64,000 nt of DNA from Chloroflexota bacterium. Its GTDB lineage: Bacteria; Chloroflexota; Anaerolineae; JAAEKA01. Position numbers and translations under genes: made by a program. Under the pieces are notes generated by a model. The model was not told where the DNA came from. It did not search any database and was given only the letters and a program-made list of their open reading frames with translations. The stretch is taken from positions 1 to 64,000 of the forward strand of contig JAYELL010000051.1 in assembly GCA_034717495.1 (NCBI GenBank), written 5' to 3'. Shown here in pieces: positions 6,956-41,900 of the stretch. The number at the start of each line of letters is the position of its first letter. Positions within the stretch are counted from its first letter, which is position 1.

Positions 6956-8113
6956 ATGGACCTGGCGACGATACTGGACGATTGCTTGCACCAGCTGAAA
7001 ACCGGGGAAACCCTGGCCGATTGCCTGGCGCGATATCCCGGCCATGCGGCAGAACTGGCGCCCATGCTGGATGCTGCCATGCAAGTCCGGGTTTTAGGCC
7101 AGCAACGACTGAGCGATGGCCAGCGCCTGCGCGGCAAGGTCATGCTCCGGGAGGCGCTGGCCAATCAATCAGCCAGACGCTCCTGGCTGGCCACGCTCAG
7201 TGGCTCCCGCCCCATGCGCGGCCTTGTTACAGCTGCTGTTGTCCTGCTGTTTGTTATCCTGACGGGTTCCGGTGTGGTCGCTGCCAGCCGGCCAGGCGAC
7301 CCGGCTTATCCAGTGCGAGTCATGCTGGAACGGGTGCCCGTGCTGTTACAAATAACCTCCGAAGGGCGGGCGCAGGCAGAATTGCATGCCGTTGGCCGCA
7401 GGTTGATGGATCTGCAAACCTATCTGGAAGAGAGCGGTCAGGTGAGCAATGAAGCCCTGGATGCCCTGCTGATAGGCTATGGTGCTGCTGCTGCCCACGG
7501 TGCCCACCTGCCGGATGAACAGCGCTTCCAGATTGCCAACCGGTTACAGGAACATGCACAGATCATGACCCACCTGTCGTCGCGCGAGCCTCAGCCGCAC
7601 GCAGTCCACAGACTACGAAGTGCCGCCCAACAAGTCAACGCCATCGCTGAACGACTGCGACCGGGAGGATCTCACCCCGCAGATCCATCCACCTCCACCC
7701 CACCTGATCCCCAAGCAGGGGATGAGCGACCCGGTGGCGGCCCATTCAACACACCCACACGGACGCCCCGAGCCGGCCAACCAACTATCAGGCCACCGGA
7801 TTCAAGGCCCGATGGCAGGACCAGACCAGCGCCGGGCACCCCAACGCCCGGCCAGCAACCGGTGGAGCCTTCTCGACCGCCGGGAGAAAGGCCAACCGAA
7901 ATGCGGCCCGTAGCTCCCGGACCATCGCGAACGCGTGTGAGGCCCAGCGCCGATCCTGGGGAGACGCCCACAGCGACGATAGAAGCCGAAACCGTCGCTC
8001 CGGCGCCCACCCCAACCGCCGAGGCCACGCGTCCCGGTCCCCGGGGCACGCGCCCACCAGACCCTCAACACACGCCGCCCGGTAACAGTCAACCGTCCAG
8101 GCCGCGCTCGTAA
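6956..8113 (+). CDS. DUF5667-type membrane protein, probable anti-sigma factor
   Basis: The 385-residue protein has a soluble N-terminal region of about 85 residues with GETLADCLARYPGHAAEL, one membrane helix at about 89-111 (VTAAVVLLFVILTGSGVVAA), and an outside region opening with the DUF5667 signature RPGDPAYPVRVMLERV and an AELHAVGRRLMDLQTYL helix. The last 150 residues are a Pro/Thr/Arg-rich low-complexity tail. The topology, with a cytosolic head, one helix and an extracytoplasmic tail, and the one-base gap to the sigma factor gene suggest that it binds the sigma factor and senses an envelope cue. No zinc-binding anti-sigma HxxxCxxC motif is visible, so the mode of inhibition is unknown. 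Confidence 0.75.
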   Translation: MDLATILDDCLHQLKTGETLADCLARYPGHAAELAPMLDAAMQVRVLGQQRLSDGQRLRGKVMLREALANQSARRSWLATLSGSRPMRGLVTAAVVLLFVILTGSGVVAASRPGDPAYPVRVMLERVPVLLQITSEGRAQAELHAVGRRLMDLQTYLEESGQVSNEALDALLIGYGAAAAHGAHLPDEQRFQIANRLQEHAQIMTHLSSREPQPHAVHRLRSAAQQVNAIAERLRPGGSHPADPSTSTPPDPQAGDERPGGGPFNTPTRTPRAGQPTIRPPDSRPDGRTRPAPGTPTPGQQPVEPSRPPGERPTEMRPVAPGPSRTRVRPSADPGETPTATIEAETVAPAPTPTAEATRPGPRGTRPPDPQHTPPGNSQPSRPRS

Positions 8114-8187
8114 AGGAGGCATGACAATATTGATTGACCCGCTATGCTGATTTAATGAACTCAACCCTATTCCCGGAGGTATTTCAG

Positions 8188-8343
8188 ATGAAGAAACGAA
8201 TTATGAGTCTGTTGCTTATCGTTGCATTCCTGGTTGCTGTGGCATCCCCAACTTTCGCTGGCGGCGGTCAAAACCAGGGCCAAGTTGGCCAGGGATCGGT
8301 AAATCAACACCAGGTACAAGATCCACCGCCGTTCCAACCCTGA
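8188..8343 (+). CDS. Small secreted Gly/Gln-rich peptide
   Basis: This 51-residue product starts MKKRIMSLLLIVAFLVAVAS, a clean signal peptide, with a likely signal peptidase I cut after SPTFA. The mature part is only about 27 residues: GGGQNQGQVGQGSVNQ followed by HQVQDPPPFQP. A GGAGGT ribosome-binding site sits seven bases before the ATG. It lies 74 bp after the anti-sigma candidate and directly before a strong hairpin, so it is the last gene of that transcript or a sigma-controlled gene of its own. I do not recognise a family. A role as an exported signal, matrix component or sensor ligand is speculation. Confidence 0.7.
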   Translation: MKKRIMSLLLIVAFLVAVASPTFAGGGQNQGQVGQGSVNQHQVQDPPPFQP

Positions 8344-8380
8344 CCTTAACGGCTTTCAACAGTCAAACACGAATAGCTTT

Positions 8381-8420
8381 GATGAACCAGACAGCCTCAA
8401 TTAAGGCTGTCTGGTTCATC
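8381..8420. terminator. Perfect 17-bp hairpin between convergent genes
   Basis: Arms 8381-8397 (GATGAACCAGACAGCCT) and 8404-8420 are exact reverse complements around a six-base loop. There is no long T run on either side. It sits between the secreted peptide gene and the convergent hydrolase gene and probably stops transcription in both directions. Confidence 0.8.
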
Positions 8421-8553
8421 TCCTCAATCAACTATCGGTTTCAGGATGAGGGTATAGTAGAGAAAATCGCCCGGGCCAGGGTGTGGTGGACAACGACGAA
8501 GTCCATCTCCACGAAGATGGTTTTTACCACGCGACGCAGCAACGAGAGAATGG

Positions 8554-9585
8554 TCATGTCCGGGAAAGATTCCTTTCGAAGAATGCCATCTGGTCGGCAA
8601 CGCTGGCCTCGAAGTTTTCGCCCATGTAGACATCAAAGTGCCCAATGGGATAGCGTTGGAGTTCGGCCAGATCACCCAGGATCATGGCTGTCTCTTCGAC
8701 AGCACCGGCAGGCAACAGATCATCCTTCTCACAGATCTGCAGCAGGGTCGGGCAGCGAATTTCGTGGGCCTGTTTGATAGGCCTGTATTTGTCGCCGCGG
8801 ATGGCGGTTCGCGCACAGGCCTCGTTTATGTAACCGGGTGGGATGAACTGTTCAAAAGCATCCATTGCATCTGGCGTCGTCATCAGGGCGACGTTTCCCG
8901 GCTTGCCCACAACCGGTATCTTATGGGGCAACAGGCCAAGCCAGGATCGCGCCAGGTCCCGCTGGGCATGAACGGCGATACGAAGATCAACTCCAGCCCG
9001 TGAATAGGTTTTCTTCGCGGATACCAATCCATCTAATCCCGGGCACTGGGCGGCCATGCAGGCGATTCGATGATCCTGGGCCGCCGTCACGACCACGTGA
9101 CCGCCGCTCATCGACGTTCCCCAAAGGGCAATCCTTTCCGGATCGATCTCCCCGCGGCTTCGAGCGTACCGAACTGCAGCCGCGTAGTCTTCCAGTTGGT
9201 GTGGAATCCAGATCAACCCCCGCGGTTCACCGGCGCTCTCACCCCAGAAACGGTAATCAAATGCCAGAACGGCGAAACCGGCAGCCTGAAAGCGGGTTTC
9301 GTAGCGGTCGAGACCCATCGCCTTGGTCCCGCCCAGGCCATGCGCCATCACGATGCACGGCACCGGGGCTGTGATCCGTGGATGATTCCGTTCGATCAGG
9401 CTCCGCTTGGCCTCAATCGAATCGGGTAGCTTTTTTTTCAGCCACTCCAACTCCATCTTAAGCCGGCCGATCTGGTCGTACAGTTCCGATTGCAGTGCTT
9501 CTTGCTCTCGCTCTCGACGAGCTCCGTTCTGGTTGATGAATAGATTGCTTCCTCCTGCTATCAGCTGTCGCTTCCAGGCGCTCAC
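8554..9585 (-). pseudogene. IS3 transposase fragment fused in frame to alpha/beta hydrolase
   Basis: The 343-residue frame is a chimera. Residues 1-70 are an IS3-family OrfA/OrfB junction (VSAWKRQLIAGG in the upstream frame, SELYDQIGRLKMELEWLKKK, then SIEAKRSLIERNHPR), including an A8 run at 9438-9431 where such elements shift frame. From residue 72 on it is an alpha/beta hydrolase: CIVMAHGLGGTKAMG (oxyanion loop), LAFDYRFWGES, nucleophile GTSMSGG, a late Asp in CEKDDLLPAG and His in PIGHFDVYMG. Family members normally carry about 25-30 more residues of beta-strand before this loop, which appear to have been replaced by the IS sequence. The hydrolase core is complete, so a hybrid protein is possible, but without its own start or promoter it may be inactive. 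Confidence 0.75.
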
Positions 9586-13796: not shown

Positions 13797-13869
13797 GTCA
13801 AGACGCAGAATTCTGACATTCTGACATTCCGACATTCTGATATTCTGACAAGCTGACATTCTGACATAG
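13797..13869. repeat. TGACATTC microsatellite
   Basis: About seven imperfect units of an 8-base motif (TCTGACAT) fill the gap between the histidine kinase stop and the hydrolase start. A similar ATGTCA-rich stretch lies at 32894-32941. Such a tract can vary in length and change spacing. Confidence 0.8.
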
Positions 13870-13871
13870 TG

Positions 13872-15224
13872 TCAGCCTGTATCCGCGGTCGGCAGCACAA
13901 TGCTAAACCGGGCTCCCGCACCAGGCACATTTTCCGCCAGAATGCTGCCTCCGTGGGCCTCGACAATCGATTTGGCAATAGCCAGACCAAGGCCCGACTC
14001 GCCGTTTCCCGTACGGGCCTCGTCGGCACGGTAGAAGCGTTTGAAGATATTAGGAAGGTGTTCCGGCTCAATACCGCTTCCGCTGTCCTGAACCGAAAGG
14101 ATCACGTTGTCGCCGCTGACCGAGCCAGACAGCAGGACCGTACCACCTTGCGCTGTATGACGCAGCGCATTGCTGACAAGGTTGCCCAACACCTGCGCCA
14201 TGCGGTCGGGATCCACGTCGATCAACGCCATATCCTGCGCCGCGCCAACCTGAAGCGTGATGCCATCGGCCGCAGCGTGCCCCCCGTAGGCCACCGCCGT
14301 ACGCTCCAATAGATCGACCGGCGCCGTAGGCCGTCGATGCAACGGCAGTTCCCCGGCATCGGCAAGAGAAAGGATCCGCAGATCATCGATCAGATGGCCC
14401 AACAGCCGCACCTCGCCGTGCATGGCATCGTACATCTCTGGCGAGCCATGCAGCTTGCCATCGGACAAGGCTTCCGTATAACCCATGATAACGCTGAGAG
14501 GAGTGCGCAGTTCGTGGGCAATGTCAGCGCTCATCTGGCGCCGTAACTGGCTGGCTCTGGCCAGATCCTGACTCATCTGATTGAAGGACTCGGCCAATTC
14601 ACCCAGTTCATCCTGGGTGCGCACCTGGACCTGATGGCCAAGTTCCCCCTGCGCGATCACTTTCGTCGCCGCTGTTAACTCTCGCACAGGCCCGGATATG
14701 CTGCGGGCCAGAATAATGCCAAGAATAAGAGCGATCAAAGCAGCTCCCATTGCACCGAAAATAACTGCCTCCCTTAACCGCCTGATAAAGTCAGCTTCCG
14801 GCGAACCTCGTGAAGCAAGTCGCGACGGGCCGTGATCCAGAAACAGAACCAAACCAATGACTTCGCCGTTATGCTTGATCGGGATTGACCTGGACGCCAT
14901 CTCCTGCCGCAGTTCGTGTCCCAGCATAGTGCGCGAAGCCGCCCACCGCACGACCCGGTTGGCATCGGCCAGGACAACGGGCCTGGTCGGTAACCGTAGC
15001 ACCGAGTTTCCGACCCCCTGCCAACTTCCATTCCGCTCGAAATAGTTTCCCAGGCGCTCAACCAAATCGACCTGATAGCGGTCCAGGACAAAGAGATCAA
15101 ACGCCTGTTGTGTGCGCAGTCCGACAAACGACGCGACCAGAACCGCGCCGGTCAGACCGACGATCAGAAAGGCCAGAGTGAGTTTGAAGGTCAGGGAACG
15201 CATGGTTGATTCAAGTAGCTTCAT
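13872..15224 (-). CDS. Sensor histidine kinase with HAMP domain
   Basis: The 450-residue protein has two membrane helices (about 12-34 and 153-173) flanking an extracytoplasmic sensor of about 115 residues, a HAMP linker (to about 225), and a kinase core. The phospho-acceptor is His237 in SADIAHELRTPLSVI; the ATP-binding domain shows VLGNLVSNALRHT (N box), DSGSGIEPEHLPNIFKRFYR (G1/F) and GESGLGLAI (G2). The layout is that of classical EnvZ/PhoR-type kinases. Its start overlaps the stop of the response regulator by four bases, so the two are a cognate pair. The signal is unknown; the adjacent secreted hydrolase and secreted repeat protein suggest an envelope cue. Confidence 0.92.
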   Translation of the reverse strand: MKLLESTMRSLTFKLTLAFLIVGLTGAVLVASFVGLRTQQAFDLFVLDRYQVDLVERLGNYFERNGSWQGVGNSVLRLPTRPVVLADANRVVRWAASRTMLGHELRQEMASRSIPIKHNGEVIGLVLFLDHGPSRLASRGSPEADFIRRLREAVIFGAMGAALIALILGIILARSISGPVRELTAATKVIAQGELGHQVQVRTQDELGELAESFNQMSQDLARASQLRRQMSADIAHELRTPLSVIMGYTEALSDGKLHGSPEMYDAMHGEVRLLGHLIDDLRILSLADAGELPLHRRPTAPVDLLERTAVAYGGHAAADGITLQVGAAQDMALIDVDPDRMAQVLGNLVSNALRHTAQGGTVLLSGSVSGDNVILSVQDSGSGIEPEHLPNIFKRFYRADEARTGNGESGLGLAIAKSIVEAHGGSILAENVPGAGARFSIVLPTADTG

Positions 15225-40596: not shown

Positions 40597-41769
40597 TTAC
40601 GACTCCGAACCATTCTCTGCCACGGCGTAGATAAGGGTGTCAGGATGCCAGTCCTTCCAGCCAAACCAGAAGGAGTTTGTCGAAGGCAGCCGCTCGAGCG
40701 ACATCCCCGCCAATGAACCTTCGAAGGCCGATCCTGCCCAAGCATTCCAGCGACTGCCCGTCTCCCGGTCAACCAGGATGAAGTTTTCACCATCAGTCTG
40801 GTCCAACTCAAATGTCAGTGTTTTGCCATCCACACTGCTGGAAAAGGCTGAGGCCGTGCCCGTTTCTGCACGATATACCACAACGAGGGAAACCCCTGCC
40901 ACCTGGTCATTGACGACCGGCCTATCACTCAGCTTTCTTAAGGGATAGAATACTGGCGTGTCATTGATCATCATGGCCAGCCCCCGTTCCTTACGTCCCA
41001 AACGAGTATCCTGCAACGTTTCTCCCAGTACGCCAGCACGGCTGTCACTGTAATAGCCGGTGTAGGCATCAAAGGACCCGGAAAATCCCTTGTCCAACGC
41101 CAACGTATCGGGGTGCATTGACTTCCATTGGCCCCATGTTGTCTGCAGCGCTGGCAGCGGTTCCAGTTTGGTGCCCGCCAGTTCCCCCTGCACCCCTTCG
41201 CCCAGGATCTGGCTCCACAGAGTGTCCGTTTCCCGGTCGTACATGACCAGCACATTCATGATCAATTTGCCGCTGACACCGAAGTTGAGCGGGGCTGGCT
41301 GGCCTGCCACATCCCGGGCATACACGATGCCCGTGAAGCAGAGAGGTCACCAGGTGACGGCGATTGGCCGCCCGCCCACCATATCGTTGACGATCTCGTG
41401 TCCGCTGAGGAATGGAATAGAGTAAGCTCGTGCATCGCCGTCCAGTTCCACACCGATGACCAGCTCGCCAGACAGATACTGTTCATCAGCCTCATCACCG
41501 GAGACGAATTCCGGCTCGAACACCGCTGGAATGGCATCTCTTGGTAAAAGTGTGATGATTTCGTAATCTGGCCGGGTGCTCTCCGACTCTGGTATCTGCT
41601 TATCAGAGACAGCCGGTGGATCAACGGCTGCCCCGGACTCGCCCGATTCCTTGACGCGCGGTTCGGTGATAGCCCTGTTGTCGCTGGTGGCCGAGCCGCT
41701 GCTACAGGCCGCCAGGAGAAAAAGGGCTATCAATATCACGACAATACCCAGGTACCGCTTTGAATGCAT
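40597..41769 (-). CDS. DUF3179 lipoprotein, candidate selenoprotein with in-frame UGA
   Basis: Two halves of a DUF3179 protein lie in the same frame, separated only by TGA at 41349-41347 (codon 141). Reading it as selenocysteine gives 390 residues: lipoprotein signal YLGIVVILIALFLLAAC, acidic linker, then ARAYSIPFLSGHEIVNDMVG, RPIAVTW-U-PLCFTGIVYAR, and FGVSGKLIMNVLVMYDRETD. In the family this position is the first Cys of a CPLC motif, so UPLC would be a UxxC redox pair. A SECIS-like hairpin follows. No other frameshift or stop is present. A Cys-to-stop mutation or base error (TGC to TGA) is the alternative. selABCD are not in the window. GAGGTG precedes the ATG. Function of DUF3179 is unknown; an exported redox role is inferred. 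Confidence 0.65.
41315..41333 (-). promoter_or_regulatory. Bacterial SECIS-like hairpin
   Basis: In the mRNA the stem CGGGCAU pairs perfectly with AUGCCCG around the five-base loop CGUGU. Twenty bases separate the UGA from the loop, inside the 16-37 range of the bacterial consensus, and a G is the second loop base. SelB-type factors recognise such elements. The hairpin lies within coding sequence, as bacterial SECIS elements do. Confidence 0.55.
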
Positions 41770-41900
41770 AGCTCACCTCGTTTTATTTGACTCGCACCAC
41801 CATTGTAGAACAGCATCCTCCTTCCTGCATGTAAACCGCCCTACGTTTGACCGGATCGATTTCCACATTGCGGTCGACGTGGGGTATATTGACGCGAATC

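Follow-up and report, generated by a model that had tools for sequence, protein, structure and literature searches.

Codon 141 of a DUF3179 gene from an Anaerolineae-like member of the Chloroflexota is a UGA that is almost certainly read as selenocysteine (Sec), which would make the product a true selenoprotein. The gene lies in the window, the stretch of 64,000 nucleotides analysed here. Comparison of sequences supports the Sec reading because UGA occupies a conserved Cys/Sec codon, the hairpin that follows covaries as a SECIS element, and the host genome carries the Sec machinery apart from selD. The product would be an exported lipoprotein, probably with a redox function.

The DUF3179 gene and its in-frame UGA

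The gene occupies 40597..41769 on the reverse strand and is preceded by a GAGG ribosome-binding-like site (41776..41779, reverse strand) upstream of the ATG at 41769. With TGA translated as U, the frame 41769-40597 encodes 390 residues followed by a TAA stop, and its sole interruption is the TGA at residue 141 (41347..41349, reverse strand). A preliminary description of this DNA had placed a single TGA at 41349-41347, between TW and PLCFTG and with both halves in frame, and retranslation gives the same arrangement, TW-U-PLC-FTG. The putative Sec forms a U-P-L-C motif with its partner Cys144 (41338..41340, reverse strand). Residues 77-378 match the Pfam family DUF3179 (PF11376) along the entire profile (1-292 of 292; E 7.3e-82; 275.5 bits against a gathering score of 27), and NCBIfam gives no match for the protein. 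The N-terminus comprises a hydrophobic signal and the lipobox L-L-A-A-C22, in which Cys22 (41704..41706, reverse strand) is predicted to follow the signal peptide and carry the lipid anchor; from this motif we infer that the protein is lipidated. Cys22 and Cys144 are its only cysteines.

Sec, Cys and other forms among DUF3179 relatives

The host genome (G000) encodes four DUF3179 genes. One, on contig C9, has CPLC at the site, and the other three have TGA at the homologous codon: the window gene (C51), a paralogue with UPLCYTG (C53 69231-69674, locus L089) and a very diverged paralogue with UAACNSG (C98 2510-3385, locus L088), the last with a covarying hairpin of its own. DUF3179 is found in 81 of 400 genomes of the same phylum, where TGA accounts for nearly all stops within the matches listed and TAG for two. 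An internal TAG in place of TGA is seen in DUF3179 genes of G307 (C42) and G153 (C73), and that of G307 falls on a Tyr codon of relatives, upstream of an intact CPLC.

A broader scan took one genome per GTDB species and its best 80 matches, which yielded 82 usable genes. Among the matches listed, the Sec codon is TGA in at least 67 genes, Cys in 14 and Arg in one, a Sec share that is biased upward by a query from the Sec clade. The Arg codon (CGT) occurs in L170:4821-5978, within a Cys clade. These results bear out the proposal of the preliminary description that the window protein is a Sec variant of a Cys family, and they supply the other UGA-containing members for which it had called, including the C53 and C98 paralogues. 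The relatives come from about ten phyla: Chloroflexota, Acidobacteriota, Methylomirabilota, Nitrospinota, Tectomicrobia, Myxococcota-type Deltaproteobacteria, Verrucomicrobia, Marinimicrobia, Poribacteria and Bacillota. At the homologous codon, TGA is present in 83 distinct Sec genes and TGC or TGT in the 14 Cys genes of the scan. A tree of the matches listed needs five Sec/Cys changes and places the window gene in an all-Sec set of 16 that includes Anaerolineae records; its closest relative among these matches is a Caldilineales record (58% identity).

In 71 of the 83 Sec sequences the domain contains no Cys or Sec apart from U and the C that partners it. Three relatives (L162, L167 and L175) have UPLA, in which Sec is kept and the partner Cys is replaced by Ala, and two of these contain no further Cys within the domain.

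A covarying bacterial SECIS hairpin

Downstream of the UGA, positions 41315..41333 of the reverse strand form a hairpin with seven perfect pairs and a five-nucleotide loop (CGGGCAU-CGUGU-AUGCCCG). It starts about 13-14 nt downstream of the UGA; the apical loop, 20 nt downstream, has G at its second position, followed by U. Bacterial SECIS (bSECIS) elements are described as having a loop of 3-9 nt, an upper stem of 4-16 bp, a spacing of 16-37 nt and a G in the first two loop positions (PMC13188914). The window hairpin lies within all of these limits, as the preliminary description had held for its 7-bp stem, CGUGU loop and 20-nt distance. Rfam gives no match in the window.

In a free hairpin search, the window hairpin alone does not differ significantly from a codon-resampled null (p about 0.11), which is conservative in that its codons are largely drawn from Sec genes. 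Such a search is too weak for a single gene and was replaced by a fixed-register covariation test; the weight of the SECIS case comes from the comparison across genes. In the 83 distinct Sec genes, 537 of 581 cells are paired (92.4%), all seven pairs being formed in 60 sequences and six in another 14. A codon-preserving null, in which synonymous codons are shuffled among sequences with an identical residue, yields 472.7 +/- 4.8 paired cells (81%) with a maximum of 492 (85%) in 2000 draws. The control set of 15 non-Sec homologues has 47 of 105 cells paired against 47.0 expected. Slid registers pair 23-69% of cells with 2-26 double-change cells, compared with 54 double-change cells in the true register.

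The compensatory changes are found in both Chloroflexota and Acidobacteriota, on branches far apart on the tree, where Arg CGN becomes AGA if Thr is ACT; the resulting stem is CUGG...CCAG, with Thr ACU and Arg AGA. Further compensated stems are CGGCCAU...AUGGCCG and CGGGUGU...ACACCCG, and that of the C98 paralogue is GCGGCAU...AUGCCGC. The codon shuffle ignores relatedness, an objection partly answered by the fact that distant branches show identical compensations. A minority of Sec genes, including the C53 paralogue, depart from the simple seven-pair form. Judged by this covariation, the window hairpin is a real bSECIS whose pairing is maintained by compensatory codon changes across Sec genes. 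Directed by it, SelB with Sec-tRNA(Sec) would decode UGA 141 as Sec.

Sec machinery of the host and its relatives

The host genome is a draft assembly of 5.0 Mb in 120 contigs, 95.6% complete. The preliminary description had called for a search for selA, selB, tRNA-Sec and selD, and the first three are present: selA at 567.5 bits (cut-off 268), selB at 349 bits (cut-off 242) and tRNA-Sec at 71.1 bits (cut-off 47), the last also called by ARAGORN. For selD, no match over the cut-off was found in this assembly. Two matches below the cut-off read, from their sequences, as an AIR-synthase-like protein and as a HypE-like gene adjoining a HypD-like gene. Full-length SelD, each with one in-frame TGA, is encoded in the same-family genomes G001, G003 and G004, and SelD was not found in G002 and G005 of that family. 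Since three genomes of the family have SelD, its absence from the host is judged likelier to be an assembly gap. Use of Sec by the host is confirmed by two FdhA-like genes (L219 and L221, on C38 and C53) with TGA in the contexts HCARLU-HSATV and HQARIU-HSATV, which we take to be the formate dehydrogenase Sec site.

The Sec machinery was also sought in 80 DUF3179-bearing genomes of the phylum. Among these, the genomes in which a TGA-type DUF3179 was observed have selA over the cut-off in all cases except G051 (a fragment) and selB in all except G307. tRNA-Sec exceeds its cut-off in every such genome searched except, again, G307 (89% complete), where the best match scores at the level of ordinary tRNAs.

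Predicted structure

An AlphaFold2 model of the window protein, built with 53 relatives, has a pLDDT of 89.2 and a pTM of 0.81. The two halves of the protein are homologous (hhalign E 1.6e-36 over 130 columns); the Sec site belongs to the first half only, and its equivalent in the second is Arg298. Residue 141 ends the first of the strands E134-141 and E146-151, which places UPLC in a strand-strand turn, not at a helix N-terminus. No thioredoxin-type entry appears among the 50 PDB matches listed by Foldseek, and the predicted fold is not thioredoxin-like. Searched by sequence, the PDB gave no match with the single sequence and only a chance match with a profile.

The best Foldseek matches in the PDB are Rieske-type domains (5bok, 5cxm and 3gce; probability 1.00, E 0.011-0.033), with a TM by target of 0.51-0.62 and a probability of 0.98-1.00 for the first five, and no PDB match was found at E <= 0.001. 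The C half aligns with Rieske sequences in a collinear but weak fashion (hhalign E 0.0063, probability 6%), and for the N half hhalign found no match to Rieske profiles. The cluster ligands CxH...CxxH are absent from DUF3179, in which UxxC is the only Cys/Sec pair. A Rieske-like fold, as predicted from this model, is a lead rather than a result. The idea that UPLC takes the place of a Rieske cluster ligand was dropped, as two hhalign alignments, taken together, place residue 141 in the turn that precedes the first loop of cluster ligands. Outside the PDB, a giant-virus protein (Indivirus; BFVD A0A1V0SD44) matches the model with E 3.5e-8 and a TM by target of 0.56.

Proposed function and genomic neighbourhood

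The window protein is probably an extracytoplasmic selenol/thiol redox protein, its redox chemistry and partner being predicted. The product would be exported and anchored through lipidated Cys22, displaying Sec141-Pro-Leu-Cys144 in the turn that links two beta strands in its first domain, the two domains being homologous. Sec141 and Cys144 may then form the active site, cycling between a Se-S bonded and a reduced state, and the Cys homologues would do the same kind of job. The UPLA members, which have no partner Cys, and the non-thioredoxin predicted fold count against a redox couple. A wider scheme, in which DUF3179 arose from duplicated Rieske-like folds that lost the cluster and gained a CxxC/UxxC in a beta-turn, is tentative and rather doubtful; the family would then be an exported, lipid-anchored class of selenol redox protein whose scaffold is not that of thioredoxin, and the class would be widespread across the Chloroflexota and further uncultured phyla.

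Neighbouring genes offer little guidance. Those in the window encode a wax-ester-synthase-like protein, a weak sulfatase match, a YceI-like protein, a short-chain dehydrogenase, a HIT protein and a radical-SAM UPF0004 protein, and they suggest no operon. ORF clustering around about 97 DUF3179 loci found no non-DUF3179 neighbour family with a clear functional link, so that no function can be assigned on the basis of an operon. An ABC-transporter cluster lies near 13 of these loci, and the example of a 31-locus neighbour cluster overlaps a DUF3179 gene on the opposite strand. At locus L079 (G085 C31), two Sec DUF3179 genes lie on opposite strands with their 3' ends almost touching, and in G054 C1 a Sec DUF3179 gene (7808-8713) is found about 5 kb from a tRNA-Sec gene (13851-13945).

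The main functional rival to the redox reading is a metal-binding turn, in which Sec141 and Cys144 would act as a CPxC-like knuckle for soft metals (Cu, Hg or Cd, for example) and not as a redox couple, Sec insertion being unaffected. CPxC turns are common metal knuckles, and the turn that holds UPLC joins two strands. However, most members offer two soft ligands only and the three UPLA members one fewer, and no conserved metal-related neighbourhood was found around the about 97 loci; metal binding is accordingly considered unlikely.

Other readings of the UGA codon

Several neighbouring genes in the window end in TGA, and UGA is therefore an ordinary stop elsewhere in it. This favours taking UGA 141 for a real stop, or else for a sequencing error, with a pseudogene or a 140-residue fragment as the outcome. 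Against this, TGA recurs at this codon in independent genomes of about ten phyla, where the frame continues intact beyond it; the downstream hairpin covaries, and a product of 140 residues would be missing the greater part of both domains. The independent homologues with TGA likewise make very unlikely the misread TGC that the preliminary description had named as a source of error. A stop or an error at this codon is thus refuted at the comparative level and retains a very small probability. Decoding as another residue, through Trp insertion or near-cognate read-through, is less credible still: the preceding residue is Trp and UGA-C is a leaky context, but UGA terminates other genes in the window, homologues have Cys and not Trp at the codon, and tRNA-Sec and a covarying SECIS are present. 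Automatic annotation would truncate genes of this kind at their UGA, which makes it easy to mistake the proteins for two fragments.

Relation to known selenoproteins

The preliminary description had left open whether Sec forms of DUF3179 were already catalogued, and they are: the DUF3179 domain-containing protein (pfam11376) is listed as a selenoprotein family with a UxxC/T motif (PMC9312934, PMC13188914). A 2022 review attributes it to work on an Olavius algarvensis symbiont (Zhang & Gladyshev 2007, NAR; PMC9312934), and in an Idiomarina study DUF3179 is merely a table entry. The window gene is a further member of this known family and, given these reviews, is not new in kind. What is added is the breadth of Sec-containing DUF3179, the occurrence of three Sec paralogues in one genome, the UxxA members and the duplication within the protein. 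A further addition is the model, which is confident and not thioredoxin-like, and for which the best matches, weak in statistical terms, are of Rieske type. The Chloroflexota member and the two further Sec paralogues of its genome now belong firmly to the family. With a large Sec/Cys set and a confident model in hand, DUF3179 is ready for the biochemistry of an exported UxxC on a non-thioredoxin scaffold.

Compared with the catalogued DUF3179 selenoproteins, the window protein shares the Pfam family, the UxxC motif and the replacement of a conserved Cys by Sec. It differs in its source, the genome of an Anaerolineae-like member of the Chloroflexota in which three paralogues have Sec and one has Cys, and in having UxxA members among its relatives besides the UxxC of the catalogued UxxC/T motif. 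Rieske [2Fe-2S] domains resemble DUF3179 in being its best Foldseek matches and in the weak, collinear alignment of its C half with their profile, whereas DUF3179 is without their C-x-H and C-x-x-H ligands. The thioredoxin-like UxxC selenoproteins (Trx, Prx and DsbA-like) have in common with DUF3179 the UxxC spacing, the existence of Cys homologues and a presumed thiol/selenol redox chemistry. Unlike them, DUF3179 yields no thioredoxin-type domain among the fold matches listed, and carries its UPLC in a strand-strand turn within a protein of two homologous beta-rich halves.
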